Of a DNA stretch of 64,000 bases, positions 14,700 to 38,425 are shown one piece after another (positions within the stretch are counted from its first letter, which is position 1; each line of letters opens with the position of its first letter). The stretch comes from Rugalucina vietnamica. Lineage: Eukaryota; Mollusca; Bivalvia; Lucinida; Lucinidae. Under the pieces are notes generated by a model that was given only the letters and a program-made list of their open reading frames with translations, was not told where the DNA came from and searched no databases. The stretch covers positions 71,952,315-72,016,314 of the forward strand of contig OZ024869.1 of NCBI GenBank assembly GCA_964017185.1. Reading direction: 5' to 3'. The translations under genes were made by a program, and so were the position numbers.

Positions 14700-16745
14700 G
14701 AAAAGAAGTATCTTCACTATCGTGGATAAACGTATTATTCACAAAATACTAATCTTTTACCTCCTAAACCCAAATCGTCATTTAGGCATTTGAAGCAGGG
14801 TATCCAAGAATTTCATAGAAAGTATGTCTTGGTTCCGGCAGACACAGCCGCAAACAATGTTGTTGTCGTTTGTAGGCTTCACTACATTAACACCTTAAAA
14901 CAAGAGCTTGATGGTACAAGGGCTTATCTGGAGACAGATACTGATGAAGTGTCTGTAGTTAATGCCCACTTAAACGATTTACCTGTTAAGTTTTCTGTTT
15001 GTGTCAATGAAGGCGAAGACAAACTTCCTACGCTGTATTGGTTACCTAAGCTTCACAAAAGACCGTACAAAGCTAGAATTATTGCAAGTTCTAGCTCTTG
15101 TACTACCACTGAACTTTCTAAATTATCAACTTCCTTATCTTACTGCTATCAAATCTCATGTTATAAGATACTGTGAGACAGTGTATGAAACTTCAAATAA
15201 AAATTGGTTTTGGTCAATAAAAATTCAGGTGAGGTGCTCAGTAAATTGAAGTGTAGAGGGTTCCGTGCGACAAGCTTGTCCACATATGATTTTTCTACTC
15301 TGTATACAACATTACCACATAATCTAATAAAAGAAAAACTTCTGGATTTGATAGAGTGGACCTTCAAAAGGGCATTAAAAAACTATGGTTCACTTTATTT
15401 GGCATGTAATGACAGAAAGGCTTTTTTCACTTCCTCTGACCAAAGTCGGTATACACTTTGGTCATGTCAGAATGTGTGCGACGCCTTGTCCTATCTCCTT
15501 GATAATATTTATATTAGATTTGGGACCAAGTTATACAGACAAATTGTTGGAATTCCGATGGGTACAAATTGCGCACCTCTCGTAGCTGATTTATTTTTAT
15601 ACTGCTACGAAAGAGATTTCATGGATTCTCTTAACCATGATAATCAAGCTGATTTTATCGAGGCTTTCAATTCCACATCTAGGTACCTCGATGACCTTTT
15701 GAACATTGACAACCCTTATTTTGAAGGTATTGTCAATCAAATTTATCCACCTGAACTACAGTTGAACAAAGCCAATATCTCAGATACCGAAGCCCCCTTT
15801 TTAGATCTACATCTTTCTGTTGCAAATGGATTTGTTTCTTCTAAAATTTATGATAAGCGCGATGACTTTGATTTTGATATAGTAAATTTTCCTTTTTTTG
15901 GATGGCGACGTTCCTCGTCGTGCTTCTTATGGCGTATACATTTCGCAACTTATTAGGTTTGCTAGGGTCTGCAATCATGTTACAGACTTCAACGCTCGAA
16001 ATAAATGTTTAACGGCAAAACTTCTCCAACAGGGCTATCGGTATCATAAACTTCGAAAAACCTTTTCTAAATTTTATCGTAGACACTATGAATTGATTTC
16101 CAAATATAATGTTGGGTTAAAGACGCTTTTAAGTGAGGGCCTTTCGGAACCTGAATTTTATGGTGACTTGGTTTACAAAATTAAGAAACTTATAGGAATT
16201 AATGATTTTTCTTTTCAATTCAGAAAAATCATAACACGTTACAAACGTATAGGTTATAACTTGAATGTTATGCGACAGTCTGCATGCTTAGTTTTTAACC
16301 CAATCATGGTTGATAACTAGGCTGCCTTCTTTAATTGCACGCCGGTGGGTCGGGGTTCAGACTCTATGATGGCCCCGACTTAAAGCTATTCATTTTAGTT
16401 GGTTGGGGCCGGAGCTTCTTGTCTGTTGCTTGGCCCACCGGAGTCCAACTGGTGTTTTTCTTTTGCTCCGGAGTAAGTAGGTTATTCGGCGCCCAGGGAT
16501 CTCCATCGTCGGGCAGCTTACTCAATCTGTGAGTCCTGGGTTTTGATTCATCAGGATGTTTATCTTGATTTATATGTTTGTTCTTGATGATTCATTGACT
16601 AGTTAGAGATTCACCACGAGGACCGAAGAACTAACTAAATGTTATCGAACCACTGCAGAAGCTGAGGGTGAGGTTAGGCGCCTGTAAAACCGGTTTAAGC
16701 CCCCCAGTTATTACAACTGACCGTTCCAAGGCGGTACTTCTATTC
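14700..16745 (+). mobile_element. Penelope-like retroelement, broken reverse transcriptase plus 3' region
   Basis: Open stretches between about 14766 and 16320 encode a reverse transcriptase of the Penelope-like type: a GIPMGTNCAPLVADLFL block, the YLDD active-site box in SRYLDDLLNIDN, then a basic C-terminal part ending in RQSACLVFNPIMVDN. No GIY-YIG endonuclease is visible. The coding part is broken into about three pieces and the 5' end appears missing. The 3' noncoding region (16321-16745) is the part that recurs about a dozen times in the window. Family assignment is by motif recognition and is moderately sure. Confidence 0.75.
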
Positions 16746-19792: not shown

Positions 19793-20145
19793 AAAACCAC
19801 TGCAGAAGCTGAGGGCGAGGTTTGGCGCCTATAAAACTGGTTTAAGCCCGCCAGTAACTTTGTGTTACTGATCGTTCCAAGGCGATACTTCTGTGGAGGT
19901 TCTTTTTGTTTTATGTCTTGGTGTTTAATTTTTTGTGCTGTTGGCGCCTTATGTGTGTTTTCATAGTTTTAGTTAAGGTAACTGAGTGGCCACCTATTGG
20001 GAAAATAGCTGCCCATTCGGCTTACGATATGTTTCATGGTATAAGTACCTGATTGTTAGTTTGGTTTTTTCCCACCTCGGTTTTTGGGGTGGGAATCTTT
20101 TTCTGATTGCGCCTTTTCCTGATCTTTGCCTACTTGTACCTTATT
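19793..20145 (+). mobile_element. Penelope-like element tail
   Basis: Begins at CACTGCAGAAGCTGAGG and runs through GAGTGGCCACCTATTGGGAA to the end TTGCCTACTTGTA. 5'-truncated. Confidence 0.8.
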
Positions 20146-20261
20146 CTTGCTTGACTAGTTCAATTTTAATTTGCTTTAGAAAAAATGGATATTTGAAAAA
20201 CAATTCCCAAATACTTAATGTTATATCATACGACCATATTTGAACTACTTCCTCATTGAAA

Positions 20262-20574: not shown

Positions 20575-22143
20575 CTATGGTCTATACATCAAATTCCAAT
20601 CTGGATTTGCTGTGAATGGTGAAACATCACACTTTGTCAATGGAACTCCTCTTTGACACCACTCTGTGGGGGAAGTTGACAATCTGATGTCGTGCCCTTG
20701 GTAAAACACCGGCGAAGTTCCTCTTACGGGTGCCGAATTCTGTTGATAGCGACACTGGCTCTTCGTGACACTTTCTTCAAAAGAGTCTTCATCGGCATAG
20801 TTCGGCGAAGAAAAATGGCTTACTTCGGGACTGGCGATCAGCAGGTTTGAACTGTCGTCAGAATTTGGACTCTCAGGAGATTCATGCTTTTCGTTAATCA
20901 CGTGATCTTCTTGTTCTACTTCTGTTTTCCGTCTCTGTCGACGTTCCTTTGCACGACGATTTTGGAACCAGATTTTGATCTAGAATAAATATATTGTAAC
21001 ATAATGTATAAAATAAAGATTTGTTTCCGTCGAATGAAAGCAGTCATTTCTGCATGTGTTTTACATTTTTGAATGAAAGGAGTCCATGCCTTTTATATGG
21101 GCCGCCGCATGGGAAAACCAACAATCTGCATAGGCGAAAACGAAGACGCAGATAAGCTTCGCAGTATCTGCGAAGCTGATCAGCGCATTTGTTTTTCCTC
21201 CACTTTCTAAAACAAAAAATTCCAGCCTCTAACCATCTTCTGTGACTGTACAGCCCGGTTTGTGTCAGACCTGGTAGAAAACCCAAATTGTTGGTTTTCA
21301 CATGCACAGGCTCATATCTGACCTTTAGCCTCCGAAACATCGGTAACACGGCTGTTCATGATTTTGTGTTTACTGCATTTTTATTTATTTATTTTTTTTA
21401 CGGTAAATATATCAGAACGTCGCGACAGAACAACATCAAATAAATATTTGGAAGCTGGTGTGTACTTTTTCAGCATTAAAATTGCACAAATGTCATGTAA
21501 AAATTAAATAAATAATACTAAAAATTAGAAATAAGAAATAATCGCTTACTTGTCTCTCTGACAGGTCCAGTTCTTTTGACAAGACATTTTTCTCTTTCAT
21601 CGTGATAAACTTGTTGTCTTTGAACGCCTTTTCTAGTCCAATCCGTTGTTTCTCAGCGTAGACAACTCTGTACTTGTCTTTGGTTCTTGTCATCCCTTCA
21701 GCCGGGACTGAGTTACCTCGCTTTCTCCAGTAAAATGGATGGGTTGGTTTTGTACATTTTACTGGGTCGCTTGCAGCCATGAGTCCTGAAAAGTCGGTAG
21801 CCATCCGAAAAGCTGTTTGTGAAGTTGTATCGCCTACAAAGGCTTGTCGCTGTGAAGTTTCCTTTGTCATGTAGTCTGCAGGAAAACCAGTCGCACCGTT
21901 GCCTTGAAAATTAAGTTGAAGAAAGTTGGTTCTATGATTCGAAAGATGGCCGCTATATAACGAACTAGATTGCCCACTGAAACCATGCGCATAGTTCTGA
22001 TACGCTTCTTCGGAAACTCCAAGGGCAGATAGTCTTGCACTTGACGCATACAAAGAATACGGGTCGATGGAGTTGTACAGACAAGTATTCCAGTTGGTCT
22101 GTGTCATGTTCTTCGTAGACATGCAATGATTGAACTGAGCCAT
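20575..22143 (-). CDS. Caudal (Cdx)-like homeobox protein, paralogue 1
   Basis: Two exons on the - strand, 22143-21550 and 20979-20575, giving 332 residues. The homeodomain (residues 155-214) starts KDKYRVVY and ends IKIWFQNRRAKERRQRRK; both ends are typical of caudal/Cdx. The middle (EKQRIGLEKAF, then NKFITMKEKNVLSKELD) is strongly diverged. The intron falls after Gln44 of the homeodomain, the position found in Cdx genes. A hexapeptide-like FYWRKR precedes the homeodomain at about residues 137-142. The protein starts MAQFNHCMSTKNM and ends in a conserved tail (SLTKCDVSPF... LMYR) shared by its two paralogues. Expected role: nuclear DNA-binding transcription factor. A MITE lies in the intron. 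An independent divergent Cdx-derived family is likely; a standard Cdx orthologue is less so. Confidence 0.88.
21099..21313 (+). mobile_element. MITE family A in homeobox intron
   Basis: Direct ATAT flanks (21095-21098 and 21314-21317), an end starting GGGCCGCCGC, the GAAGCTGATCAGCGCA hairpin arm and the right end CAGGCTC. Oriented opposite to the host gene. Confidence 0.85.
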
Positions 22144-22267
22144 TGTTTAGATACTAAAGAAATTACGGAGATAGCTCGGAAGAAAGTAAACAATGCAAAT
22201 GCGTTAACTTCAGCTGTTTAGCCTTTGACCGTCTTGGTAAATATAACGAAAATCTATGGGATACGAG

Positions 22268-22276
22268 TTTATATAC
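22268..22276 (-). promoter_or_regulatory. TATA box of homeobox paralogue 1
   Basis: On the - strand GTATATAAA lies about 125 bp before the start codon. It is embedded in a block (CAAGTCG...AAATTTGTATATAAAC) that is aligned in the other two paralogues. Confidence 0.7.
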
Positions 22277-22299
22277 AAATTTTTCGACTTGGTTGATTT

Positions 22300-22625
22300 A
22301 TCATAAAATCAGATTTAAACGGAAATCTTAATCCAATTTCGCTTTCTGCAACTTAACTGCAAGATTGATATCATAGCAACTGTACGGCTTAATTGCTTAT
22401 TCAAGCCTCTACAATGCACGATAATAAAACTGTATCGATGACTTTATTACACATTTACCTAGAACGATACCGATTGTAATCGATCATCGCTGTCTATAAT
22501 CGATAATCGTCGATTAAACGGTCAGTTAAACATGTGTTTACCTGTGAACTGATCAATTTATTAGTGTTCACGATTGGGACATCTTAACTGCAATTAAGCC
22601 GACTGTCTGGCGTATCTCCGAGTCG
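22300..22625 (-). promoter_or_regulatory. Conserved upstream module of homeobox paralogue 1
   Basis: Read on the - strand it contains CCAGACAGTCGGCTTAATTG, TCACAGGTAAACACATG, GATTATCGATTATAGACAG and GATGATCGATTACAATCG. Nearer the gene come GGATTAAGATTTCC and GATTTTATGATAAATC, the latter holding a caudal-type TTTATGA site. The same order of blocks recurs upstream of the other two homeobox genes and, in part, at 25325-25560 and 30795-31050. Confidence 0.75.
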
Positions 22626-22936
22626 TGCCGTGTGTCTAAGACGGTACATAGCGGTTTACTTTTTTTGTTTTTACGAAAACACGCCAATGAAATGTACATT
22701 CAGGATTTTTACAGTTGCAAAATTTGAACATTTCTTTTTTCATTTTTTTTTCTTTATAAAATAGCTTTTTTTTCTTGGCGATTCAAACGATGCATACAAT
22801 TTATGTTTTCAAGCAAATTAAGTATATCATCTACAGCCAAGTTTTCTATGCAGAATATAATTGGTTTGCATTCACGAAGAACATACGGAGTCACTGATCA
22901 AAGTAAAAGTTGCTTATTGTTATTCTGATAGTGAAG

Positions 22937-22997
<61 letters not shown>

Positions 22998-23380
22998 AGT
23001 TATTGCGTTGTGAAGTAGTCGCACATCTAGGAAGATTTTTTTTGTAAGATTGCCCAAGCATTTTTCAAAATCTCAATGAAATGAAGTTTATTGCAAGTTT
23101 CTGTTGTATTTAGACATGTATTTATGTGTGTAAGTCAAGCAGAGGCTTCTTTAAAAATTGGACAAAATCTTTGAATTTAGTATAGTATCATATAGGAAAT
23201 TGGAAACATGGCCCCACCTCCATTGCCCCATCAAATTATTTTGAAAAGAACTGTGTTTTTGTAAATGACATATTATATCAAAATGCCACATTAGGGCAAG
23301 GATCAGCTCTATTATTTGAAATGTACCAAGGCTATGTGAATATACTGTATATTATGGTGTACCGAAAGGCTCATAAAGCG
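22626..23380. other. Intergenic with 60-bp poly-A tract
   Basis: A pure A run covers 22937-22996. The rest is AT-rich with no recognisable gene. Confidence 0.7.
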
Positions 23381-23384
23381 GAAT

Positions 23385-23705
23385 AAGGGTATACACCCTA
23401 ATTATTTAGGGTATACACCCTAATTAATTAGGGTGTATACCCTAAATAATTAATTTGGGTATATACCTTAATTCCAATTTTGAATTATGGCGTATTCAAA
23501 AATCGAATTAGGGTATATACAATAATTAATTTGGGTATATACCTTAATTTCAATTTTGAATTATGGCATATACCCAAATTAATTTGGGTCTATACCATAA
23601 ATAATTTAGGTATAGACCCCCCAAAAAAACTTTTGATCCTCTTGGTGCGCCTCAGTATAATTCAGAAGAAAAAAAAAGCGAATTATGGTATAGACCTAAA
23701 TTAAT
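23385..23705. repeat. Palindromic TTAGGGTATA array
   Basis: Repeated self-complementary units such as TTAGGGTATACACCCTAA alternate with AATTAATTTGGGTATATACC and ATTTTGAATTATGGC. The array can fold in many registers. It is not a telomere: TTAGGG is not in head-to-tail repeats. Confidence 0.85.
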
Positions 23706-23779
23706 TTTTGGGCGGAAAACCTATCGATTCTTCCTAGATCCTTATTTAACTTAAATGAAGAAATATTTGTGTCTTATTG

Positions 23780-23862
23780 TCAATTTTGTTTCTTCCCACC
23801 TTGGTTTTTGGAGTGGGAATGTCTTGCGGAATGCACCGCTTTCTGATCATTGCCTACATTGC
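23780..23862 (+). mobile_element. Penelope-like element fragment
   Basis: CCCACCTTGGTTTTTGGAGT and TCTGATCATTGCCTAC match the last ~80 bp of the tail. Confidence 0.65.
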
Positions 23863-24134
23863 CAACGCGATTAATTTTCCATGCAAAATAAGATTTGCAC
23901 ATAGAATTGCTATCATTGGTTGAAACATCATTAAAGGATACACTATTTAAATAGTTTGGAAGGCTGAATAAAAATGAGATGATTTTGTCATATTAAATCA
24001 TACAGGTACATGTATAAGGTGAAGACTTTTTAATGTTATGTTTTCGAACCAGACCTAGACTAAGTACAGGCGACGTATGCTTTTTGGCGGGTTCCGACAA
24101 GGCCAAAACTAGCCGGAACGGCAATGGACAGCAT

Positions 24135-24965
24135 CTTTATTCTACGAGGAACTTGAGTAGGCAATGATCAGGAAAAGGCAAAATCAGAAAGGAACTCCCA
24201 CTCCAAAAACCGAGGCGGGAAAAACAAATTGACAATTAGATACTTAGAGAACATATCGTAAGTCGAGTGAGCAGCTTTTTCTCAATAGGCGGCCACTCAG
24301 TTATCCGAACTTATCTAAAACTATGAACACGTACATAAGGTTCAAACAGCACAAAAAATCGACCCCAACACATAAAACAAATAGAGCCACAACAGAAGTA
24401 TCGACTTGGAACGATCAGCAATATATAACTACGGGGGGGGGGGGGGGCTTAAACCGGTTTTACAGGGCCCTAACCTCACCCTCAAATCAACATTTAGTTG
24501 TTCGGTCCTCATGGTGAATCTCTAACTAGTCAATGAATCATCATGGACAAACAAATAAATCATGATAACCACCATGATGAATCAAAAACGAGGACTCACA
24601 GATTCAGTAAGCTGTCCCTGGGCGCCGAATAACTTACTGAAATCCGGAGCAAAAGAAAAACACCAGTTGAACCCCGGTGGGCCGAGCAACAGAAGCTCCG
24701 GTCCCAAACAACTAAAATGAATAGCTTTAAGTCGGGACCATCATAGAGTCTGACGCCCGACCCACCGGTGTGCAATTTAAGAATGCAGCGTAGTTATCAA
24801 CCATGATTGGGTTAAAAACTAAGCATGCAGACTGACGCATAGCATTTAAGTTATACCCTATACGTCTGTAACGTGATATGATTTTTCTGAACTGAAAAGA
24901 ACAGTCATTCCCTCCTATCAGTTTCTTAAATTTGTAAACCAAGTCACCATAAAATTCTGGTTCCG
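24135..24965 (-). mobile_element. Penelope-like element, 5'-truncated, - strand
   Basis: On the - strand it starts in the C-terminal end of the reverse transcriptase ORF (RQSACLVFNPIMVDN-type residues at 24942-24727) and runs through the whole 3' noncoding region to about 24135. A run of Gs at 24434-24448 interrupts it. Confidence 0.8.
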
Positions 24966-25324
24966 AAAGGCTTTAAATACAGAATATAGAAAATGACCAC
25001 AGGACAGTTTTGCAAGAAAGTAAACACTGTATGCATATTATGCTCAAATTCGTTCAGAGATGAAATGGCATATAATGTGTGCTTTGAGAATGATAAATGG
25101 GCATAAATGATCAAAGGACTAGCCAGTGGCATCCACTTTTTCTTGGCAATGAGGTAAACCCTATATGATTCTTAATTCATTCAAACATTCTCCATGAAAT
25201 GAGTAAAATAAATTAACCCCTGTAAATGAGACGAGCATTTCTGTTTGTCACCAACAAACGAATTACCCTAAGACGTAATGATAGGCATACAGGTACACAC
25301 TGTATGTTCCCGATAGCGCATGCA

Positions 25325-25560
25325 CACTCAGATACACGGAAAGAGATGGACCAGACAGTCAGCCTGATTGCAATTGCTATGTCCGCTTCGTGAACGTAAA
25401 TAAATTTATCATTTCACAGGTAAACGTGTTTTAGTGGGCGTTAAATCGCTTATAATCGATTATAGACTGCAATGATCGATTGCAATCTGTAGATGCGCAA
25501 TGACTGAAATAATTATGATTCATATAATCGCCTATAATCGACAACCGTTAAAATGGCCTA
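25325..25560 (+). promoter_or_regulatory. Orphan copy of the homeobox upstream module (1)
   Basis: On the + strand it holds AGAGATGGACCAGACAGTCA, CCTGATTGCAATTGC, TTCACAGGTAAACGTG, AATCGATTATAGACTGCAAT and GATCGATTGCAATC, in the same order as upstream of the homeobox genes. It most resembles the module of the + strand gene at 36082. The proximal GGATTAAGATTTCC block, TATA box and coding exons are missing; transposon-derived DNA follows instead. Confidence 0.7.
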
Positions 25561-25574
25561 GCAAACTTTGAACC

Positions 25575-25720
25575 AAGGTACCAGCTTCAGCAGTGGTTCA
25601 CAGCCTCCAGTAAATCCCTAAATAGTAGTAAATAAACTATATCGGCCAAACATAGTATTTTTGATAATCAAAACGACATGAACAATCAAAAACGAGGAAG
25701 CACAGATTCTTTCAGAATAT
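25575..25720 (-). mobile_element. Penelope-like element fragments, - strand
   Basis: CAGCTTCAGCAGTGGTTCAC and AATCAAAAACGAGGAAGCAC match the complement of the element's 3' region, with divergence and gaps. Confidence 0.5.
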
Positions 25721-25902
25721 GAACAGCAATTTCCGTACAGAAAACGAAACTGAAACGTATATGAATCGAAGTAAATGGCGAATCACTAACACAACAACAC
25801 TGATAACCAAGAGCGAAATAAGTGCACTATTAGACTTTAAGGTCATTGCAAGAAGAAACGCAGACGTTTGAAAGACAGTTGGGGGGAGGGGGCAGAACAC
25901 TA

Positions 25903-26375
25903 CTGAGAACCACGTGGTATTGTATACATACAAACCGATAGATGATCGGTGACACACACTGCAATTGAGAACAAAGTTGAGGTTAAATTTTCGAGTTTTC
26001 TCCTAAAGCGTTTCTTCAACTGACTGATAGTAGGTGCAGTCAATGCAGAAATTGAACATTTATTGAAAGAAAAGTAAGGTAAGAAATCTCGGTTATTTCG
26101 TTTTTGCAAACACTTCAATGTTATTGTGTTGGAAGACCTATATTTTCATTTTTCTGAAAGTGTTTGCGAAAACGAAATAACCTGGATTCGTTATGTTACT
26201 TTCATTCAATAAATGTTCAATTTCTGCATTGACTGTACATGCTGTACCTATCTATCATTCAATAGAGTAACCGAAAGTAGGAGAAAACTCGCGGAATTTC
26301 TCATCTCAACTTCGAACAGAATTTCATTGTGCGTCACCCATTTCGTACCACGTGTTTCTCAGTTGTGCAGAAGGG
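25903..26375. mobile_element. Foldback element with ~215-bp arms
   Basis: The left arm holds ACCACGTGGTA, GTTTTCTCCTAAAG, TGCAGAAATTGAACATTTAT and GGTTATTTCGTTTTTGCAAA. The right arm holds their complements in reverse order (AAACGAAATAACC, AATGTTCAATTTCTGCA, GGAGAAAACTC, TACCACGTG). The loop is about 40-50 bp. No ORF of note. Confidence 0.8.
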
Positions 26376-26379
26376 TGTG

Positions 26380-27640
26380 CGCCAAACCATTTCTATATCA
26401 ATAACTTTCCAACTCTTTAAAGAAGCCCTTGACAGAGTTTGGTACATGTAGCCCATGACAGATTGGGAATTGGCCTTATGTTTGAGATTAAAAAAAATAA
26501 CGCGCATTAAGCTCAACCATTTTACCAAAAATCTTTTAATTAAAGAGTTATTTCACTAGCATTTTTGACTAGATCATGACTTTCATGACCTAGCCAATAG
26601 CCAATTAGAAAATCCAAAATCATTCTGAATTTCGCTTAAAATGACGTGAGTGATACGAGTATGATGTATCCGATTTTTGAGAAATAACTGGTAATTTTGA
26701 AAATCGGCATGATTACCATTATTGTACGAATTTGCGTGTTTTATTGGGACATTTTATTCAATTCTACATCAGATTCGCCCCTTGAATGTTTATTCGTGGT
26801 GCAAATTTCCATTCATGTTTGAGAACTTTTAGTTCAAAGTATTGTCATTTCTTCTGTAATAAAAAACAATAGTTTCAATCTGATAACATACAATGTTTCT
26901 TCAGTTCATGACATGGTACCATTCCGTAATTATGCAAACTGTAAATTTCTAAAGCCTATTTTAAAAATTTTGAGTTTTTTGGTTCAGAAACGCAGTGCGT
27001 TACGTTTTATGGACGGTATACAATTTATTCTTGTCATCGGATAAGCTCATCAATGTCGTATGCGCTTTCGGCCAGATATTTTTGCATATTTGCATAATCA
27101 CACCGGTTTTGCCATTTTCGGATACAATTATCATATTGAGTTTTAATAAAACCTCAAGGAGTATACACTGGTTCTAGGGACTTGCAAATATGTCCATTTG
27201 GTGTCAAAGAGCATTGTGAATTCGATAAAATAGCACAAATCAGATACAGCGTTGGGAAGTCTGTAAATGAAAGGATATGGGAACTTGATTACTCATTACA
27301 GTCATCCGTGAGCGGTTTTTCACTTTATGGGTACCTTTGCAAGACGAACAAAAACGTGGCGTCATGTGGGTGGAAATATTATGAAAATCAATCTATAGTT
27401 GAAAGGACAGACAAATTTAAGTATTTTGCAAGTTTGAAGTATTTTATAAAGTCCCAGTTATATAACATTGCATAGAGTTCTTTTAAGTGCATACCGTATT
27501 ACAAACTGCAGCTGACATTTTGATTGGCTTTTTAAAAGAAGCCAACTTGTTTTGTCAAATATACACTGGGTTCACTAGCAAGTTAAACTATACGTAGAAG
27601 AACAAGCAAGTTAAACTATACGTAGAAGAACAAGAAAACA
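26380..27640. other. Intergenic, nothing recognised
   Basis: AT-rich. The one longer open frame (27182-27475) has no recognisable domain. A short direct repeat, AGCAAGTTAAACTATACGTA, occurs twice near 27580-27625. Confidence 0.5.
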
Positions 27641-27747
27641 TAAACAAAGCCGCATTGATTTTATATAAAAATTTAATGAATAATATATACACAAAAAGGC
27701 ATAGATAATTATAATTATTATAAAAATGCATTCATGGTAATTAATGT

Positions 27748-28416
27748 CTATGATCTATACATCAAATTCCAATCTGGGTTTGCTGTGAAAGGCGATACAT
27801 CACACTTTGTCAATGAAACTCCTCTCTGATACCACTCTGTTGGGGAAGTTGACAATCTAGCGTTGTGTCTTTGGTTGAACACCGGCGAAGTGCCACTAAC
27901 TGATGCCGAATTCTGTTGATAACGACATTGGCTCTTAGTGGTAGTTTCTTCAAAAGAATGCTCATCTGCGAAGTTTGGCGAAGAATATTGGCTTATTTCA
28001 GGACTGGCATTCAGCAGGTTTGAAAGATCTTCAGAATTCGAACTGTCCAGTGAATCGTTTTCTTGCTCTTCGTTAATCACGTGATCTTCTTGTTCTACTT
28101 CCGTTTTCCGTCTCTGTCGGCGTTCCTTTGCACGACGATTTTGGAACCAGATTTTGATCTAGAATAAATATAATGTTTCAATTAAATAAAGATGCGTTTC
28201 TATCGAATGAAAGACGTCATATTGAGAAAAAAAATAAAGATGTGTTTCTTTCGAATGAGGTTAATCAGTCCTTTAATATTACGCCAGAACTATGCTTTTA
28301 TAAACGATATCAGAAACTTTGATCATGATAATACTACATCCAATCAATATTTGGAAGTTAAGATAATCTAGTTGCAGTCAGTCTTTTTTAGTGTTTAAGA
28401 TGATGAGAGTTTTATA

Positions 28417-28488
<72 letters not shown>

Positions 28489-29103
28489 GAGAAGAAACCA
28501 AATTACCTGTCTCTCAGACAAATCAAGTTCTTTAGATAAAACAGTTTTTTCTTTCATCGTGATAAACTTGTTGTCTTTGAACGCCTTTTCTAGTCCAATC
28601 CTTTGTTTCTCAGTATAGACAACTCTGTACTTGTCTTTGGTTCTTGTCATTCCCTCGGCCGGCACAGAGTTACCTCTCTTTCTCCAGTAAAATGGATGGG
28701 CTGGTTTTGCACATTTTACTGGATCGCTTGCAGCCACGAGTCCCGAGAAGTCTGTGTCCATCTGAAAAGCAGTCATCGAAGTCGCAGCGCCTCCAAAGCT
28801 TTGGTGGTGTGACGTGCTCTTCGTCTGGTATTCGGCAGATAAACCAGTCGGTCCATTGCCTCGAAAAGCAGCATGAAGAATGTTGGTTCTGGGGTACCAA
28901 AGATGGCCGCCGTATAAAGGATTCGATTGTTCGCTGAAACCGTTGGCATATTGCGGATAAGCCTCTCTAGGTACTCCGAGGCCGGATAGCCTTGCACTTG
29001 ATGCATACAAAGAGTATGGATCAGTAGAATTATACAGGCAGGGATTCCAATAATTTGCCTGCGTCATGTTATCCGTAGAAATGCAATTATTAAACTGAGC
29101 CAT
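27748..29103 (-). CDS. Caudal (Cdx)-like homeobox protein, paralogue 2
   Basis: Two exons on the - strand, 29103-28507 and 28158-27748, giving 335 residues. The homeodomain (residues 156-215) has the same split after Gln44 and the same KDKYRVVY start and IKIWFQNRRAKERR end as paralogue 1. The two genes are alike through most of their length, including the MAQFN start, FYWRKR before the homeodomain and the tail SLTKCDVSPFTANPDWNLMY. Similarity continues into the 3' flank (GATTTTATATAAAAATTTAA) and the 5' flank, so this is a segmental duplication with paralogue 1. Expected role: nuclear DNA-binding regulator. The intron holds a TTTA microsatellite. Confidence 0.88.
28417..28488. repeat. (TAAA)n microsatellite in homeobox intron
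   Basis: About 18 uninterrupted 4-bp units, close to the 5' splice site of paralogue 2. Confidence 0.95.
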
Positions 29104-29229
29104 AACTTAGCATAAAATAATGTAGATACTCGTCACTTGGAAAACAAAAAAGCAGGCCAAAAGTGAAACTGTAGTTTTTTTAGCTTTTGGCCGATTATGA
29201 AGAAGTGATGAACATCAATGCAACCTCAG

Positions 29230-29239
29230 TTTATATACC
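29230..29239 (-). promoter_or_regulatory. TATA box of homeobox paralogue 2
   Basis: On the - strand AAATTGGTATATAAACTGAG lies about 127 bp before the start codon, aligned with the TATA region of paralogue 1. Confidence 0.7.
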
Positions 29240-29259
29240 AATTTACGACTTGGTAAATT

Positions 29260-29585
29260 TATCACAAAATCAGAATTTAAAGGAAATCTTAATCCCATTT
29301 CGCGTTCTGCAACTTAACTGCAAGATTGATATCATCGACATTTTATGCTTTAATTATTTTTTCAAGCCTCTATAACGCACGATAATAAAACTATATCGAT
29401 CACTCTATTATACATTTACCTAGAACGAATCTGATTGCAATCGATCATCGCTGTCTATAATCGATAATCGTCGATTAAACGGTCAGTTAAACATGTGTTT
29501 ACCTCTAAACTGATTAATTTATTAGTGCTCTTCATTGGGACATCTTAACTGCAATTTGACCGGCTGTCTGGGCCATCTTTGTCCG
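29260..29585 (-). promoter_or_regulatory. Conserved upstream module of homeobox paralogue 2
   Basis: Nearly the same as the module of paralogue 1: GGGATTAAGATTTCC, GATTATCGATTATAGACAGC, GATGATCGATTGCAATC, GTAAACACATGTTTAACTG and the distal CAGACAGCCGGTCAAATTG. Confidence 0.75.
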
Positions 29586-30120
29586 TGTGTCTGAACGCAC
29601 GTATCGGCGAAGAGAACAGACCGAGGCTGAGTTCTGTAGAGGAGTCGGACCGAAATTTCCAATTTTGTGAATTTGAATATAATGTAGAAATGCTGGTTTC
29701 ATTAGTTTTCAATATAAAATGTGATGCAGCTTTTTATCATGTTTATATTCAGATATTGCATTGTCAGCCTCTCATAATGCTTAAATTGACATTTTTGTAA
29801 TATATCTGAGATTCCACAAATTTGATTCTCCCTGCAAAATAAGATTTGTACATTGGCAGTTTTGTTCGAACATTATTTAAAATAATATAACCGTGATTTT
29901 TAGTTTGGAGTTCGGGAGCATGGATACACTGAGGAAAGTGTTAAATAAATTTTACCTGTAAAAAGCAAAACTATTTGATCTGCCATATTATTAAAAGGAT
30001 CTAAATAAACGGGACAACGGCAACAGTAAGAGGCTTAGAATATAAGATTAAATACACTATGTATAGCATGTCCAACCAGATTGCATACGTTGCATGCATC
30101 GCGAATAATTAAGATAAATG
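29586..30120. other. Intergenic, duplicated flank
   Basis: CCTGCAAAATAAGATTTGTA near 29835 has a counterpart (CATGCAAAATAAGATTTGCA) near 23880, so the duplication that made paralogues 1 and 2 reaches at least this far upstream. No gene seen. Confidence 0.5.
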
Positions 30121-30125
30121 TAAAG

Positions 30126-30310
30126 TGAGGAGAGCGGTGGCGTAGTGATAGAGCGTCGGGCATTGAATCGAGAGGTATTAGGTTCGATCCCCACTGACGG
30201 TACCATGTTGTGACGCTGAGCAAGACATTTACTTCTCAAGAGTAATGGTTATGTACCTGTAGCTCCGTCCCAACATGACTCAAAAATGTTGACTGGGACA
30301 TTAAATTTCA
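30126..30310 (+). mobile_element. tRNA-derived SINE
   Basis: A-box-like GGTGGCGTAGTGATAG, B box GGTTCGATCCCC, body with GTAGCTCCGTCCCAACATGA and an ACAAA tail. Same family as 18845-19055. Confidence 0.8.
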
Positions 30311-30474
30311 ATTACAAACAAACAGAAATGTAAATGATCGAATGACTATCCAGGGACATCCAGGGTTTCTTCAAAATAGGGTACATCCTACATTTTCTTA
30401 ATTCATTCGTTGAAAGTGAAATAAAATAGTCCCAAGAGCCGAGCAAATTAAACTAATCAGGAAATCATGTCCAT

Positions 30475-30630
30475 GAAAAGTATACCCCCTTGAACACCAC
30501 TTTTATGTAGAAAAAATGCAGGGGTATACCTATTTTTCTTATTTTTTTTTCCAAAACATAGACTGTGGGTACTCGTTAGAACCGCCTCGGTTCTAACGTG
30601 TACCCACAGTGTATGTTTTGAGCAAAGATA
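30475..30630. mobile_element. Family G palindromic repeat
   Basis: GGGGTATACCTATTTTTC and GTGGGTACTCGTTAGAACCG are followed by their complement CGGTTCTAACGTGTACCCAC, forming a hairpin around GCCTC. Confidence 0.8.
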
Positions 30631-30794
30631 TAAAAAAAATATCATTTTTTTTCCCACGAAATTTTCAATTTTTGCTTCTGACAAAAATTCTGTAATATTG
30701 CATGGGCATGTTTTCGTAATGTGAAGCCATTTTTGCCACCAACCGAATTTTCCCAAGACATTAATCATAGCTCTAACAGGTACATGGATGCTCC

Positions 30795-31050
30795 ATTTGT
30801 GCATGGACCCTCAGACGCACTGAAAGAGACGAACCAGACAGTCTGCCTGATTGCAATTACGATGTCCTCTTTAGAACATCAATAAATTAATCAGTTCACA
30901 GGTAAAACATGTTTAACTGGGCGTTTAAATGGTCGATAATCGAATCTAAACTGCAATGATCGATTAAAATCGAAAGATGCAGAATGAAATAACGATAAAA
31001 TACTATAATCGTCAATAATCGATAACCGCTTTTTAAAAGTAACCTAGCAA
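30795..31050 (+). promoter_or_regulatory. Orphan copy of the homeobox upstream module (2)
   Basis: On the + strand it holds GAGACGAACCAGACAGTCTG, CCTGATTGCAATTACGATGT, CAGTTCACAGGTAAAACATG, TGCAATGATCGATTAAAATC and TCGATAACCG, in the order seen upstream of the gene at 36082. No homeobox exon, TATA box or GGATTAAGATTTCC block follows; an old Penelope-like fragment does. Confidence 0.7.
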
Positions 31051-31164
31051 ACGTCTAGCAGCCGCTTCGATCAAGTTATTTTATAACATAGTCTGTATTT
31101 CTATGAAGCGAGTTCTTTATAATATCAGAAAAAAACAATGACCAGGTTACAGCGCAAACAGAAC

Positions 31165-31450
31165 CTAAAAAGGCCCATCCCGAAAATCCACGCGGGAAAC
31201 AACAAAAGTGACTAACAGACATAATAACGCAAAAAATAATGCAAGGCAAGTCGAGAGAGCAGCCCGTCCCACAAGGTGGCATTTCAAATATCCGAAAACA
31301 ACCGGGTGTATGACTACGCATGCATTAGGTCCAAACAGAACTACAACATGAAATAAGTGGCGCCACAACAGAAGCACCGTCTTAGAACGACCAACAACAG
31401 AAAAACACTGGTGACTTAAAACTTGCATCACCAAGCACGTAACTACGGAC
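31165..31450 (-). mobile_element. Old Penelope-like element tail, - strand
   Basis: It keeps the order of the tail's landmarks on the - strand (for example TGGTCGTTCTAAGACGGTGC, GGCGCCACTT, TCCCGCGTGG) but is much more diverged than the other copies. Confidence 0.55.
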
Positions 31451-31769
31451 CAACCTCACACAAAATTACTTCAGTTATGAAGGAAAATAAATTGATGCAC
31501 TTGGTCTATATCTAAAACGAATTATAAACATGACAAGTATAAGCTTTTCTAAAAAGCTAGTGGGCGTTTAGCTAAATTTCGGTGTAAACAGACTTGCAGT
31601 GTTGTGAGTAGATACTTTGTTGAGTTTAACGCTGTTGTCAACATTATCTGAAATATCATGATGGCGTCTGGTTGTGACAGGGAGCTCAATGCTCACTTTT
31701 ACATTGACCTTACTTTTGTATCAGATCCCAGACACTTTACCTGATATTACACATAGTCACATTATATTG

Positions 31770-31915
31770 ACACAAAGGTCATCCCGAAAATCGTAGTGCC
31801 AAGGGGAGAGCAACTAATGCCGTTGCTATCGACTTTGGTATGTCGCGGCCCGGGATAGAACCCGGTACCTACTGATCCTGGAGCTGTTATTCTACCTATT
31901 GAGTTTGAGCAGATA
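31770..31915 (-). mobile_element. tRNA-derived SINE, second family, - strand
   Basis: On the - strand CTCAATAGGTAGAATAACAG resembles an A box region and GGGTTCTATCCC a B box. They are spaced as in a tRNA-like head. The overlapping ORF is spurious. Confidence 0.6.
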
Positions 31916-32094
31916 CTGTAATTTATATCCATTTGGGTTTGAGGAATGATGTTTGTGTTGGTCACTCTGCAACAGTTTGATAATATTTTGATAATACATG
32001 ATTCTTGGTATTGAGTTAAATTCACAAAGTTTTATGTTTTTTTTTTTTTGTTTTTTTTTTTCAGTCAATGGTTTTTGCTTGGCGCGACAGCGTC

Positions 32095-33480
32095 AAGCAA
32101 TTGAAAGAGACTTAGAAATTAAAAAATGACCTAAATGACTTTGACCTTAATTACTCAAATAACTTCAATAACTCTAGAAGTTGTCTTAAAGGTTACAGGT
32201 TTTATATAAAACATTCTGAATATCATGTTTTCACTTTTTCCATTAAAAAGCCTATGTGACCAAATTTGATCTTGCTGTAAATTAGGTCAAGGTCAACCCA
32301 AGGTCATGATTTATATAAACTATGATGGGCCAGAGCCCTTGATGCTACATAGTATGTTTCATTGAAATCGATCCATCGGTTCCCGAGAAGAAGATTTGTT
32401 CTAGGTTTTTGCTATTTATAGCCCTGGCGGCCATCTTGGTCATGTGACCTGGGCCATTTATACAAACTTTGATTTTCCGTCCCTAAGGATGCTCCACATG
32501 AAGTTTGGCTTTGATTAGTCAAGTGGTTTCTGAGAAAACTAAGGTTTAGATTTAATATGTAAATGACATTTGGCTAAAGTCAAGAAATGACCTTGACCTT
32601 GAATACTCACATCACTTCATTAAATCAATAAGTTGTCTGTATCTACCAACTTTCAGGTCATATGCTTTGAAACTTTCTGAAAAATTCAATGCTTTCACTT
32701 TTTTTCCATTAAAGAGCCTATGTGACCAAAATTGGCCTTGCTGTAAAATAGGCCAAGGTCAACCCAAGGTCATGTTTTATACAAATTATGATGGGCAGGC
32801 GTCCCCGATGTTACATACCAAGTTTCCTTGAAATCGGTCCACCGTTTCCAGAGAAGAAGATTTTTTAATTTTTTTTTGCTATTTACAGTGTATAGTCCTG
32901 GCAGCCATCTTGGTCATGTTACCTGGACCATTTACTCAAACTTTGGTTCCTCTTTCCTAAAGATGCCCCACATGAAGTTAGGCTTTGATTTGTCAAGTGG
33001 TTTCTGAGAAAATTAAGTTTTAAATTCAATATGTGAATGACCGTTGGCCAAGGTCAAGAAATGACCTTGACCTTGAATACTCACAACACTTCATTAAATC
33101 AACAAGTTGTCTGTATCTACCAACTTTCAGGACACAGTTTTCAAAATTTCCTGAAAAATTCAATGCTTTCACTTTTTTTCCATTGAAGAGCCTATGTGAC
33201 CAAAATTGACCTTGCGATAAAATAGGTCAAGGTCAACCCAAGGTCATAATTTATACAAACTATGATGGGCAGGCGTCCCGTATGATACATACCAAGTTTC
33301 ATTGAAATCGGTCCACGGGTTCCAGAGAAGAAGATTTTTTAAGGTTTTTACTATTTAAAGCCCTGGCGGCTATCTTGTTCATGTGACCTGGACCATTTAT
33401 ACAAACTTTGGTTTCCCCCATCCTAAGGATGCTCCACATGAAGTTTGGCTTTGATTGGCCCAGTGGTTTCAGAGTATTCA
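32095..33480 (+). repeat. Tandem repeat, ~470-bp unit, about three copies
   Basis: TGACCTTGACCTTGAATACT recurs near 32588 and 33060, with a diverged first instance near 32126. Each unit also has GAGCCTATGTGACCAAA, TAGGTCAAGGTCAACCCAAG, GAGAAGAAGATTT and CCACATGAAGTTTGGCTTTG. The third unit is cut near 33475. The units are rich in AAGGTCA half-sites. No conserved reading frame. Confidence 0.85.
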
Positions 33481-33648
33481 GTATACGCTGTTATACTGAG
33501 GTGACCCCAACTTGTGGTGCGCTACTATTGACTAAGACAGCGCTAAATCAGAGTAGGCCGGAAGTAGCAAGAATAAATTATGAACAAACACTCCCAGGTA
33601 TGGTCAAAATTGTGTAAGTGCTCCAGCGTACATATGACTTTTAGAGAA

Positions 33649-33670
33649 TGTGGGCGCCTAGGCGCCCACA
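33649..33670. repeat. Perfect 22-bp palindrome
   Basis: The two half-sites TGTGGGCGCCT and AGGCGCCCACA meet without a spacer. Confidence 0.9.
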
Positions 33671-33756
33671 ATAAAGTATTCAAACAACATTGCATATTTT
33701 CTTTTCATTTCTCTTACATCCCAACCCCTACCCTACACATCTCAGTCTAAGGCGTA

Positions 33757-34082
33757 TCTAAGCTGAGGGTGAGGTTAGGATCCTGTAAAACCGGTTTAAG
33801 CCCGCCAGTAACTTTGTGTTACTGATCGTTCCAATGCGATACTTCTGTGGTGGTTCTTTTTGTTTTGTGTCTTTTTGTGCTGTTGGCGCCTTATGTGTGT
33901 TTTCATATTTTTAGTTAAGTAAAGGTAACTGAGTGGCCACCTATTGGGAAAATAGCTGCTCATTCGGCTTACGATATGTTTCATGGTATAAGTACCTGAT
34001 TGTTAGTTTGGTTTTTTCCCACCTCGGTTTTTGGAGTGGGAATCTTTTTCTGATTGCGCCTTTTCCTGATCTTTGCCTACTT
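33757..34082 (+). mobile_element. Penelope-like element tail
   Basis: From GCTGAGGGTGAGGTTAGG through GAGTGGCCACCTATTGGGAA to the end TTTGCCTACTTGT. 5'-truncated, close in sequence to the copy at 19793. Confidence 0.8.
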
Positions 34083-34399
34083 GTCAATATGTACATATCA
34101 GTAAGGGTTGCGTTATGTCATAATGTTTCTGTATTGGCTGTTGCAATATTTTTCGCAACAATGCGGGCTCGTCTAGCAAGTCATGGCACACACAAATTGT
34201 GCTTTCACAATTCTGCTGTAAGCATATTGATCGATTGCTCAATCTTCGCCAAGGAGTTAGTTTTTGGAGGCTTGCATAGGAGGAGGCAATTTTGTTTCCT
34301 TATATTGTTGACTTTACGTAAATTACAATAAAATGACTGTTGTAACCGGCAAAACGTTTTATATGAGTAAAAGACAAATTTGCCATTCTGTGGGCTTTC
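34083..34399. other. Intergenic, nothing recognised
   Basis: No supported gene or repeat in this stretch. Confidence 0.4.
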
Positions 34400-34754
34400 A
34401 GCCGTTTCATATCAAATAAATAAAAAGTAAAGTAAGAACAGAGGACCAGGAATCGATACAATTAAATTCAAATTCCCAACATAGACACCAGGTATGAAAG
34501 AAAATATATAAAACACAATAAAAAAATTCCCGATAACACACACGAAGAGCAGAATGGAGCGGACTGGTGCAGTCGGTAGCACATCGGACTTTGGGCCGAG
34601 GGGTCCCCGGTTCGATCCCCGTCCGGGGCGTCGTCTGTTGTGGCCTTGAGCAAGTTACATTTCTACAGTGTACATATGTTCTTAAGATTGTCGCAATAAA
34701 AAGCTCTACATAGCTTATGTTAGTTGTTGAAATATGAAGCGACTTTAAATAAAG

Positions 34755-34790
<36 letters not shown>

Positions 34791-35180
34791 GAATGGCTAG
34801 CTCTTTCCCAGCAAGGTAGCCATCCGGCTACGTTTTAACCGAAACGAAAAGTAACGAGCACGACAGAGAGGCAGGCACAATAAACAGTAGTATATTGAAG
34901 CTGAACCACTTTTCCTGGGACTATACTACTGTTTATTGTGCCTGCCTCTCTGTCGTGCTCGTTGCCTTTCGTTTCGGTTGAAACAGCCGGATGGCTACTT
35001 TGTTTGGAAAAAGCTAGTCATTCTGCTCTTCGTGTGTGTTGTCGGAAAAAATGTTTCATTGTGTTTTATATAAATTTATTTTCTTTCCCATCTGGTGTCT
35101 ATGTTGTGACTTTAAATTTAATTGCATCGATTCCTGGTCACTCTACTCTTACTTTACTTTTTATTTAAAACTGAGATCCT
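34400..35180. mobile_element. Large foldback element with a SINE in its left arm
   Basis: Arms of about 260 bp face each other around a short loop near 34906-34922: AATAAACAGTAGTATA versus TATACTACTGTTTATT, CGTGCTCGTTGC versus its complement, and GGACCAGGAATCGAT versus ATCGATTCCTGGTC. The left arm is interrupted by the SINE at 34558-34789; the right arm is not. Confidence 0.85.
34558..34789 (+). mobile_element. tRNA-derived SINE with (ATT)n tail
   Basis: A-box-like TGGTGCAGTCGGTAGC, B box GGTTCGATCCCC, then a tail of about ten ATT units. The direct repeat AGAATGG flanks it at 34551-34557 and 34790-34796, a clear target-site duplication. Confidence 0.9.
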
Positions 35181-35569
35181 TTGCATTCCTGAAAAGGCCA
35201 CCATGTCACAACATGTTTGCCAAACAGCAGCTTCGTCATATTTCCGAAATTGTATCCATGGTCATAAGACGAAAAACAGGAACGACCACACAAATTTGCA
35301 TTAAATCTTTGTGGTAAACGTTGTGATGCAACAGTTCATAGAGTAACTGTTCAAAACGAATTTAAATTTACGAAAATAAATACATGTACAGTTATTTGTT
35401 TTAAGGTATGGAATTGGGAACATCGTAGTTAGTATTAAAATTCGGTCTCAATAAGTGAAAGAAGATCCTTGGATATTTGAAATAAGTAAGGTTTTAAGTA
35501 ACAAATCATTTGCATTTGCAAGAAAGTGGCCAACATGAGAAAACTAAGGGATCTCGGCTGCTGTTCAAC
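35181..35569. other. Intergenic, nothing recognised
   Basis: AT-rich; short open frames only. Confidence 0.4.
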
Positions 35570-35900
35570 CCAGAACACGGATAGAGATGAACCAGACAGA
35601 CGGCTTGATTGCAATTACGATGTCTCCTCATTGAACGGTTGTAAATTAATCAGTTCACAGGTAAAACATGTTTAAGTGACTGTTATATCGTCGATAATCG
35701 GTTATAGAGTGCGATGATCGATTGAAATCGATTAATTTTATTGAAACCATCGATAAACTCAAAACGATTGTCTAGTAGCGATAACCGTTAAAATAATCGA
35801 ATAGAAGTGACCATATTGTGGTGATCTGAATCTTGCTGAAGAATCAAGAAAGCGTAACACCAGGATTAAGATTTCCGTAAATTTACGATCTTATGATATG
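35570..35900 (+). promoter_or_regulatory. Conserved upstream module of homeobox paralogue 3
   Basis: GAGATGAACCAGACAGACGG, GATTGCAATTACGATGTC, TCAGTTCACAGGTAAAACAT, GTCGATAATCGGTTATAG, GATGATCGATTGAAATCG and the proximal GGATTAAGATTTCCGT occur in the same order as in the other modules. Confidence 0.75.
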
Positions 35901-35919
35901 GTCTTCGAGTAGAAAATTG

Positions 35920-35929
35920 GTATATATAT
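35920..35929 (+). promoter_or_regulatory. TATA box of homeobox paralogue 3
   Basis: AAAATTGGTATATATATCGA aligns with the TATA region of paralogues 1 and 2 and lies about 150 bp before the start codon. Confidence 0.65.
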
Positions 35930-36081
35930 CGAGCTCACTCTGCTGTTTCTTCACTCTCGCTTCAAATGAGCAAACACCAACATCAAGTCTGATATATTTG
36001 TGCTTTTTATTGCATAATTTTACTTTACAAAATCTTTATTTTTCGTGACAAGGATCTATATAAACGAGAGCAACAATTACA

Positions 36082-37636
36082 ATGGCTCACTTTCATCATG
36101 GTATCGCCTCTGATAGCATTATACAGGGAAGTTGGAATCCTTGTCTATACGCCTCTACGAATCCATATTCTTTGTATGCTTCAAGCGCTAGGTTGTCTCG
36201 CTACGGAGTTTCTGATGAGGGGTTTCCACACTATGCTAATGGTAACAGCGGAGTATCGAGTTCTTTGTTTAATGGCAACGTTTGGTATACCAATAACAGC
36301 CATCTTCAGACGCTAGGCCACGCTTATGAGTCAAACTGCGTTCCATCAGTTTCCATGGCAGCAATCACATCTGGACAACAAAACTTTGGAGAAGTGGCGA
36401 CTTCACTGACGGCATTGCAAATGGCAAGCGACTTTGCAGGATTCACGGAGGCTAGCAATCCAGCAAAATGCCACAAACCAGCCCATCCATTCTATTTGAG
36501 AAAGAGAGGTAACCCTGTGCCAGCCGAGGGAATGACAAGAACCAAAGACAAGTACAGAGTTGTCTATACTGAAAAACAACGGATTGGACTTGAAAAGGCG
36601 TTCAAAGATAACAAGTTTATCACGATGAAAGAGAAAAATGTCTTGTCAAAAGAACTGGACCTGTCAGAGAGACAAGTAAGGGGTTGTTTTATTATTTTTC
36701 ATCGATATTTCTCATTGGATCAATACTTGTTTATTATTTTGTTTGTTTTCCACCTTAATTGGTGGGGCGAGACTTGTGTCTGCTTTCTACTTTTTAAAAA
36801 TTCAAACAGCGTAAGGATAGTCCGATGTTCGATTATCGGCGACATAATAGTCATTAAAATGCCTTGGCGGTAGTTAAGAAACGACGGATTACATACACGT
36901 GCACTTGCAGTTAAGACTGTATCCAATGTAGACGAATAAACTATATAGATACACACACATGCATTTGGATCCACAATGCATTTAATGAAGTTTTATTTTG
37001 CATTTATATTCAGTTACACGGTTTGACGATCACATTTCATTATGTGTCATTAATATGCAGAAAGTATATCTGCACCGTAACTTGCAATCATTAAAGATGC
37101 ACAAAAACTGTGTTTAATAACACTCATGCTAAGTGTGTAAAGGTGCAAAAACTGTGTTTAATAACATTCGTGCTAAGAGTGTCAGTGTGTTGCTGAAGTA
37201 TGACATGGATTTACAGTTTTTCTATTTATTTTAGATCAAAATCTGGTTCCAAAACCGCCGTGCCAAGGAACGCCGACAGAGACGGAAAGCGGAAGTAGAA
37301 CAAGAAGACCACGTGATTAACAAAGAGCAAGAAAATGATTCACCAGACAGTCCGGATTCTGGAGACGTTTCAACCTTTCTTAATGCCAGAACATATGTCA
37401 CTCAGTTGTCTCCCGGGAACTATACCGAGGTACCGTCATTTGACGACGCCACAAAGAGCCAATGCCGTTATCAACAAAATGCCTCCTGCGTAAGCGCCAC
37501 TTCACCAGTGTTTTACCAAAGGCAAACCGAAAACTTTTCAACATCCCCTACGGACTGGAGTCAGAGAGGATTGTCGTTGACAAAATGTGATGTATCGCCA
37601 TTCGCAGCAAATCCAGATTTGATGTATAGATCATAG
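36082..37636 (+). CDS. Caudal (Cdx)-like homeobox protein, paralogue 3
   Basis: Two exons, 36082-36675 and 37235-37636, giving 331 residues. The homeodomain (residues 155-214) starts KDKYRVVYTEKQ and is again split after Gln44. Exon 2 opens IKIWFQNRRAKERRQRRKAE. Start MAHFHHGIASDS and the conserved blocks NPYSLYASSARLS, PFYLRKRGN (Leu where the others have Trp) and SLTKCDVSPFAANPD show common descent with paralogues 1 and 2. It is the most diverged of the three in the N-terminal half and lies on the opposite strand. Expected role: DNA-binding regulator. AATAAA at about 37848 may serve the transcript end. Confidence 0.88.
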
Positions 37637-38205: not shown

Positions 38206-38425
38206 GAGCCACCACATGGGAAAAACAACAATCTGCATAGGCGAAAACAAAGGCGCAGATCAGCTTCGCAGTGACTGCGAAGCTGCTCAATGCCTTTGTT
38301 TTTGCTACACGGATAGTACAGTTCCTCATCTTTCTAAATCTCTAACCATCTTCTGTGACTGTACAGCCCGGTTTGTGTCGGACCTGGTCGGCACCCAAAT
38401 TGTTGGTTTTCTCACGCACATGCTC
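38206..38425 (+). mobile_element. MITE family A
   Basis: Left end GAGCCACCACATGGG, hairpin CAGCTTCGCAGTGACTGCGA, right end ATGCTC, with ATAT on the left and ACAT on the right. Confidence 0.8.

Follow-up and report, generated by a model that had tools for sequence, protein, structure and literature searches.

Three Cdx-like homeobox genes with an altered homeodomain form a local array in the bivalve Rugalucina vietnamica

Cdx is usually a strongly conserved gene of posterior patterning, and lineage-specific arrays of it reveal where that constraint has loosened. How such a gene came to stand in three copies, all with a heavily altered homeodomain, is the question raised by a stretch of 64,000 nucleotides (nt) from the lucinid bivalve Rugalucina vietnamica (GenBank assembly GCA_964017185.1, contig OZ024869.1, positions 71,952,315 to 72,016,314 of the forward strand); we call this whole stretch the window and number positions from its first letter. 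An earlier note on this DNA had reported a local array of three strongly diverged caudal-type homeobox genes at 20575..37636, and three homeobox genes are indeed present within this interval as intact two-exon models. From their sequences we think it probable, with good confidence, that they are a lineage-specific array of three predicted-functional Cdx paralogues whose homeodomain had been altered before the gene was copied. The genes, here named A, B and C, and their homeodomains lie as follows.

20575..22143, minus strand: gene A, Cdx-like, 332 amino acids (aa); exon 1 22143-21550, intron 21549-20980, exon 2 20979-20575
27748..29103, minus strand: gene B, Cdx-like, 335 aa; exon 1 29103-28507, intron 28506-28159, exon 2 28158-27748
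36082..37636, plus strand: gene C, Cdx-like, 331 aa; exon 1 36082-36675, intron 36676-37234, exon 2 37235-37636
21550..21681, minus strand: homeodomain residues 1-44 of gene A; remainder 20979-20932
28507..28638, minus strand: homeodomain residues 1-44 of gene B; remainder 28158-28111
36544..36675, plus strand: homeodomain residues 1-44 of gene C; remainder 37235-37282

The spliced reading frames of all three genes are uninterrupted between the ATG and the stop codon, every intron has a GT donor site and an AG acceptor site, and chance resemblance to a homeobox is excluded by the Pfam Homeodomain matches (E = 5.6e-17 for A, 1.2e-17 for B and 1.6e-18 for C). The intron, 570 nt long in A, 348 in B and 559 in C, separates homeodomain residues 44 and 45 in each spliced model, just as the note had described; an intron at this place is a Cdx feature, yet it is present in other families too. 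WFQNRRAKERR, also named there, was found in all three genes, whose RAKERR end is Cdx-like. The KDKYRVVYT arm, claimed for the three alike, is complete in B and C (9/9 residues) but holds for only eight of the nine residues of A, which reads KDKYRVVYA.

The arm and the RAKER end occur also in the CDX chains that came up when the linker plus homeodomain of B was searched by sequence against the PDB; there the top five and six of the top seven matches were CDX-1 or CDX-2 (69.9-77 bits), the sixth match being an engrailed construct aligned in two stretches (70 bits). The three homeodomains share 36-37 of 60 residues with human CDX2; that of C has 37/60 identities to CDX2, CDX4, cad and pal-1 and 36/60 to CDX1, and the closest sequences after these five Cdx references are HOXA13 and HHEX, with 28/60 each. 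An unrooted maximum-likelihood tree was built from 60 columns of 35 homeodomains, three from the window and 32 references, among which CDX1 and CDX2 were confirmed by their agreement with sequences from the PDB search. In this tree of mostly unconfirmed references, the split that sets Cdx and the window genes against all other homeodomains has a support of 100/100, in line with the affinity that the note had proposed.

The note had also held that helices 1 and 2 depart strongly from canonical Cdx, and the alignment bears this out. The homeodomain of C differs from that of CDX2 by 23 changes, of which 19 fall in positions 10-40, leaving 12 of the 31 residues identical there; positions 1-9 are the same, and the four changes outside 10-40 comprise V45I and the three final residues. 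For comparison, pal-1 of the nematode C. elegans retains 19/31 identities to CDX2 at positions 10-40 and 40/60 overall, against 37 for the window genes. In relative-rate counts of unique homeodomain changes, which rest on mostly unconfirmed reference sequences, C has 16 changes and Drosophila cad one when CDX2 is the outgroup (chi-square 13.2; 17 to 1 for A), and C has seven where pal-1 has four (chi-square 0.8); with HOXA5 as the outgroup, C exceeds CDX2 by 12 to 2, cad by 11 to 3 and pal-1 by 7 to 3. The counts of 7 to 4 and 7 to 3 thus suggest that the window genes are overall about as diverged as pal-1, with helices 1 and 2 more changed than in pal-1.

What has not changed are the residues that would read DNA. 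According to an excerpt of PMC5896879, Asp-187, Arg-228, Lys-231 and Asn-236 are implicated in DNA binding by CDX2, Ile-262 and Gln-265 of HOXB13, the counterparts of I47 and Q50, are discussed in the same context, and the preferred sites are of the CAATAAA and TCGTAAA types. With Asn-236 of CDX2 being homeodomain residue 51, the four CDX2 residues correspond to homeodomain positions 2, 43, 46 and 51, and D2, R43, K46, I47, Q50 and N51 are the same in A, B and C as in CDX2. R5, which we take to be a DNA-reading residue of Cdx likewise, is also unchanged. Because these residues have been kept, A, B and C most likely continue to recognize CAATAAA and TCGTAAA sites of the CDX type.

When did the homeodomain change? 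Between the copies it is identical at 58 of 60 residues (A-B) or 59 of 60 (A-C and B-C), despite a whole-gene synonymous divergence (dS) of 0.62 for A-B, 0.83 for A-C and 0.90 for B-C, and the alteration therefore preceded the duplications, arising in the common ancestor of the copies and being held from then on. The earlier phrase "fast-diverged copies" cannot stand as worded, since it fits only the outer regions. In the homeodomain, nonsynonymous divergence (dN) is 0.014 for A-B and 0.007 for both A-C and B-C, whereas in the N-terminal region it is 0.20, 0.40 and 0.38 and in the C-terminal region 0.10, 0.23 and 0.19 for A-B, A-C and B-C, respectively, exceeding the homeodomain values 7 to 57 times; over the N-terminal 124 codons, the proteins are just 44-68% identical between copies. 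The ratio dN/dS, again in the order A-B, A-C and B-C, is 0.03, 0.03 and 0.01 for the homeodomain and 0.18, 0.27 and 0.23 for the whole gene, and its 95% intervals outside the homeodomain are 0.14-0.30, 0.20-0.40 and 0.18-0.39; in no bootstrap replicate of the six comparisons (999-1000 replicates each) did it reach 1. Purifying selection acts on the homeodomain, as the proposal of the note requires, and, with faster divergence, on the outer regions.

The copies have more in common than their coding sequence, as a stretch of about 500 nt can be aligned upstream of the three start codons.

22144..22618, minus strand: upstream of A, aligning with B and partly with C; ATCGAT at 22434, 22479 and 22499; TATA about 130 nt before the ATG
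29104..29593, minus strand: upstream of B; ATCGAT at 29395, 29440 and 29460; 66 nt identical to A
35571..36081, plus strand: upstream of C; ATCGAT at 35717, 35727 and 35749; GTATATA some 160 nt ahead of the ATG

Identity between A and B is 0.76-0.95 in the first approximately 380 columns, which include the 66-nt perfect run, and that between C and either of them is 0.65-0.83 in columns 1-180 and 0.70-0.73 in columns 281-380. GTATATA, at the position of a TATA box, and GGATTAAGATTTCC are identical upstream of all three genes. The hexamer ATCGAT, a site of the Cut/Onecut type, occurs 25 times in the 64 kb; of 6340 overlapping 600-nt segments, 165 contain it at least three times, and these form three groups, all of them upstream of A, B or C. 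The copies thus probably share a common regulatory input. A second block is alike in the A and B loci, at 25244-25496 and 30732-30980 (77% over 257 nt), about 3.1-3.4 kb upstream of the start codon of A and 1.6-1.9 kb upstream of that of B; it contains ATCGAT at 25455, 25475 and 30959 and is a possible distal enhancer copied along with the gene.

Cdx proteins are described as possessing a hexapeptide (excerpt of PMC2723086). The hexapeptide-like motif of the earlier note was recovered in the forms it had given, as FYWRKR in A and B and as FYLRKR, with leucine in place of tryptophan, in C. In Hox proteins the hexapeptide tryptophan contacts TALE partners, and its loss may set C functionally apart from A and B. 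When the 30-residue linker was compared with an unconfirmed sequence of human CDX1, its score was reached by 5 (A), 8 (B) and 17 (C) of 500 shuffles; with that of human CDX2, the numbers were 224, 214 and 249.

A further process that probably has shaped the array is gene conversion, to which one tract points.

21550..21594, minus strand: probable gene-conversion tract between A and C, homeodomain codons 30-44; partner 36631-36675

Overall A and B are the closest pair, agreeing at 155 of the 324 polymorphic sites, against 65 for A-C and 74 for B-C. In these exon 1 codons, 10 consecutive polymorphic sites have A and C agreeing against B, a run reached in none of 10000 shuffles; with synonymous codons only, the A-C run is of nine and was equalled in two of 10000. 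Six tests were made in total (three pairs, each with all sites and with synonymous codons), the shuffles assuming exchangeable sites, and the other pairs gave no significant run (B-C, codons 149-164, 0.14 and 0.19; A-B, 0.90 and 0.64). The tract is likely to reflect conversion, either between A and C, which are inverted relative to each other, or of B by a fourth copy that was not seen; the latter would explain it equally well. No fourth copy was found by tblastn with the three proteins against the 64-kb window at E values up to 10: the best match outside the genes, of C residues 132-179 to 21076-21222 in the intron of A (E = 0.002), mostly overlaps a dispersed repeat and was not counted, and the remaining ones have E values of 1.4 or worse. 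Searches for relatives of gene B returned three pattern matches in the viral contigs searched and nine in the genome contigs searched, none of them a relative.

Several observations weigh against reading the locus as a Cdx array with a common upstream region. The tree has only 60 columns, mostly unconfirmed references and no lophotrochozoan Cdx, and a topology holding the window genes outside the five reference Cdx survives the test (p-AU 0.35, by the approximately unbiased [AU] test). The N-terminal caudal activation region is a Cdx feature believed not to be universal among invertebrate Cdx, and none of the three N-terminal regions has a Pfam match; when they were compared with the first 60 residues of human CDX1 and CDX2, in unconfirmed sequences, the similarity of A, B and C was reached by 0, 17 and 282 of 500 shuffles for CDX1 and by 125, 12 and 193 for CDX2, a weak resemblance, inconsistent among the copies, on which we do not rely. 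Upstream, the identity of C to A and B is patchy, falling to 0.51-0.62 in columns 161-300, and in columns 401-540, the last approximately 140 before the ATG, identity is 0.45-0.58 in all pairs. The ATCGAT motif was selected after inspecting the alignment, and its three clusters are copies of one inherited cluster, so they attest retention and not three independent events. Lastly, a forced grouping with HHEX passes the Shimodaira–Hasegawa (SH) test (p = 0.20), which, like the rank of HOXA13 and HHEX directly after the Cdx references, would suit a descent from a posterior Hox or other ANTP-class gene with a convergent likeness to Cdx. That descent is nevertheless very improbable: the AU test rejects the groupings with both HHEX (p = 0.03) and posterior Hox (p = 0.005; SH 0.046), and the arm and the RAKER end are common to the CDX chains. 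Even when the window genes are held outside the reference Cdx, both groups remain neighbours in the best tree, and from this retained split and the rejected trees we take A, B and C to be either Cdx genes or a group directly sister to the sampled ones. Scarcely credible is the idea of decaying duplicates or of an assembly artefact, for example uncollapsed haplotypes. The genes do sit among repeats, and the intron of A holds dispersed repeat copies; a dS of 0.6-0.9, however, is well above allelic difference, the frames are open and the splice sites intact, dN/dS is well under 1 in the three pairs, and the upstream sequence is partly conserved.

Harder to judge is whether a canonical Cdx exists besides these genes, and our reading of a lineage-specific array covers both cases. 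A, B and C may be the only Cdx genes of the animal, belonging to a fast-evolving Cdx lineage comparable to pal-1 and multiplied by plain amplification, with no new role; to this we give a substantial chance, if short of an even one. The divergence from CDX2, near that of pal-1 in identities and relative rates, is consistent with it, as are the purifying selection in all pairs and the common upstream sequence, but helices 1 and 2 are more altered than those of pal-1. Also, excerpts of reports on mollusc genomes (PMC7566022, PMC5322547, PMC4759782 and PMC8848322) list a Cdx gene for two oysters, for the pearl oyster and for Biomphalaria, with ParaHox loci dispersed to varying degrees, and contain no mention of a Cdx array. 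With a somewhat lower chance, the genes could form a Cdx-derived family beside a retained canonical Cdx, with helices 1 and 2 remodelled before the duplications and afterwards kept uniform by selection and conversion, and with a new role in the early embryo or a lineage-specific organ under the control of the common ATCGAT-cluster promoter.

Under the lineage-specific array that we favor, a single ancestral Cdx gene would first have altered its helix 1/helix 2 surface; the gene and its upstream sequence would then have been duplicated into the ancestor of C and the ancestor of A and B, and A and B would have arisen later as a tandem pair, while C is inverted and faces B head to head. We infer that each copy encodes a homeodomain transcription factor in which the helix 1/2 surface, the diverging termini and the lost tryptophan of C would alter cofactor contacts or output and not the target motif. 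The upstream sequence, TATA box and ATCGAT cluster would provide the common input, which probably acts in the early embryo or in tissue of the posterior or the hindgut, with the work split among the copies. A burst of homeodomain change followed by near standstill in all three copies, whose outer regions diverge and whose upstream DNA was copied with them, would make the locus a natural experiment on two matters: which homeodomain surface can vary while the residues that read DNA are kept, and how ParaHox duplicates share out work.

Cdx is often no longer linked to Gsx and Xlox in molluscs, and within the 64-kb window, a small one for this purpose, no further homeobox motif or match was found. 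Non-homeobox genes flank the array on both sides, with receptor genes at about 3.6-13.8 kb and a symporter gene from about 51.8 kb. The former are two tandem secretin-family receptor genes on the plus strand at 3621-7789 and 10069-13829 (7tm_2, E = 5.8e-12 and 1.1e-13), the repeat being offset by 6013 nt; before each of them lies an open reading frame (ORF) with a Cys-rich CCGYC...GSCC stretch. The latter is a sodium:solute symporter (SLC5-like) gene of several exons on the plus strand at about 51800-56800; its exon at 55419-55856 matches Pfam SSF (E = 6.8e-30), that at 56390-56761 has no Pfam match, and the other exons from about 51.8 kb were read by eye from the frames.

Repeats of several kinds are interspersed. 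A remnant at 14730-16425 (plus strand) resembles a Penelope-like reverse transcriptase, with broken frames and a below-cut-off Pfam RVT_1 match (E = 0.15); a SECIS_1 match (RF00031; 39 bits, gathering threshold 35, E = 2.5e-4) starts 38 nt after its last ORF, and this may be a retroelement of the selenoprotein type. A portion of the remnant recurs inverted at 24691-24971 (91%), and selenoprotein Penelope-like elements are not reported among the literature matches listed. A dispersed palindromic repeat with a 65-nt core, GCGAAAAC...GTTTTCGC, is found at 21134-21198 (in the intron of A), 38241-38305, 50922-50986, 52338-52402 and 63410-63474. The segment 32235-33349, which lies between the promoters of the divergently oriented genes B and C, holds tandem copies at spacings of 466 and 474 nt (83-85% over 175-300 nt), and at 44734-45690 there is a degenerate array with a 14-nt period. 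Another dispersed repeat, at 33872-34084, 48150-48376, 55864-56081 and 19968-20151, has copies that match one another in pairs over 106-213 nt at 95-98%, which suggests recent activity.

How does the array compare with what is known? That most animals carry a single Cdx gene or a few, as the note stated, is broadly right, but much larger numbers have been published: excerpts give 28 Cdx-like homeoboxes in the leech Helobdella robusta (PMC4758240), or 14 in Helobdella by another count (PMC5322547), and four Cdx genes in the earthworm Eisenia (as cited in PMC10379933). By similarly partial texts, phylactolaemate bryozoans have Cdxa and Cdxb, on separate scaffolds in Cristatella (C. mucedo; PMC10675955), the spider Dysdera silvatica has a two-gene tandem Cdx cluster (PMC10726417), and mollusc ParaHox clusters are often dispersed (PMC7566022, PMC8848322). 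No three-gene Cdx array like this one is described among the matches listed from the open-licence literature. In the naidids Nais and Pristina, Cdx1 is epidermal and Cdx2 is expressed in the posterior gut (excerpt of PMC10379933), and a similar division of labor would be a reasonable model for A, B and C.

With the Cdx/caudal genes CDX1, CDX2, cad and pal-1, the window genes share the arm, the recognition helix, the DNA-binding residues of CDX2, the side of the tree and, in A and B, the W motif upstream of the homeodomain; they differ in helices 1 and 2 (19 of 31 positions against CDX2), in lacking an N-terminal Pfam match and, in C, in the missing hexapeptide tryptophan. Lepidopteran Shx genes, too, stand in tandem; they are Hox-derived copies with an altered homeodomain and a new early role, and their origin is zen/Hox3 and not Cdx. 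Helobdella robusta offers a parallel in its lineage-specific multiplication of Cdx, with many more copies than the three of the window and a likeness drawn from the published description and not from sequence. Eisenia, Nais, Pristina, the bryozoans and Dysdera also carry additional Cdx copies, clustered in the Dysdera pair, but number two to four of them, unlinked in Cristatella. The array of R. vietnamica is a further case of the known lineage-specific expansion of Cdx, distinguished by its altered helices 1 and 2, the homeodomain held among the copies and their common upstream sequence.

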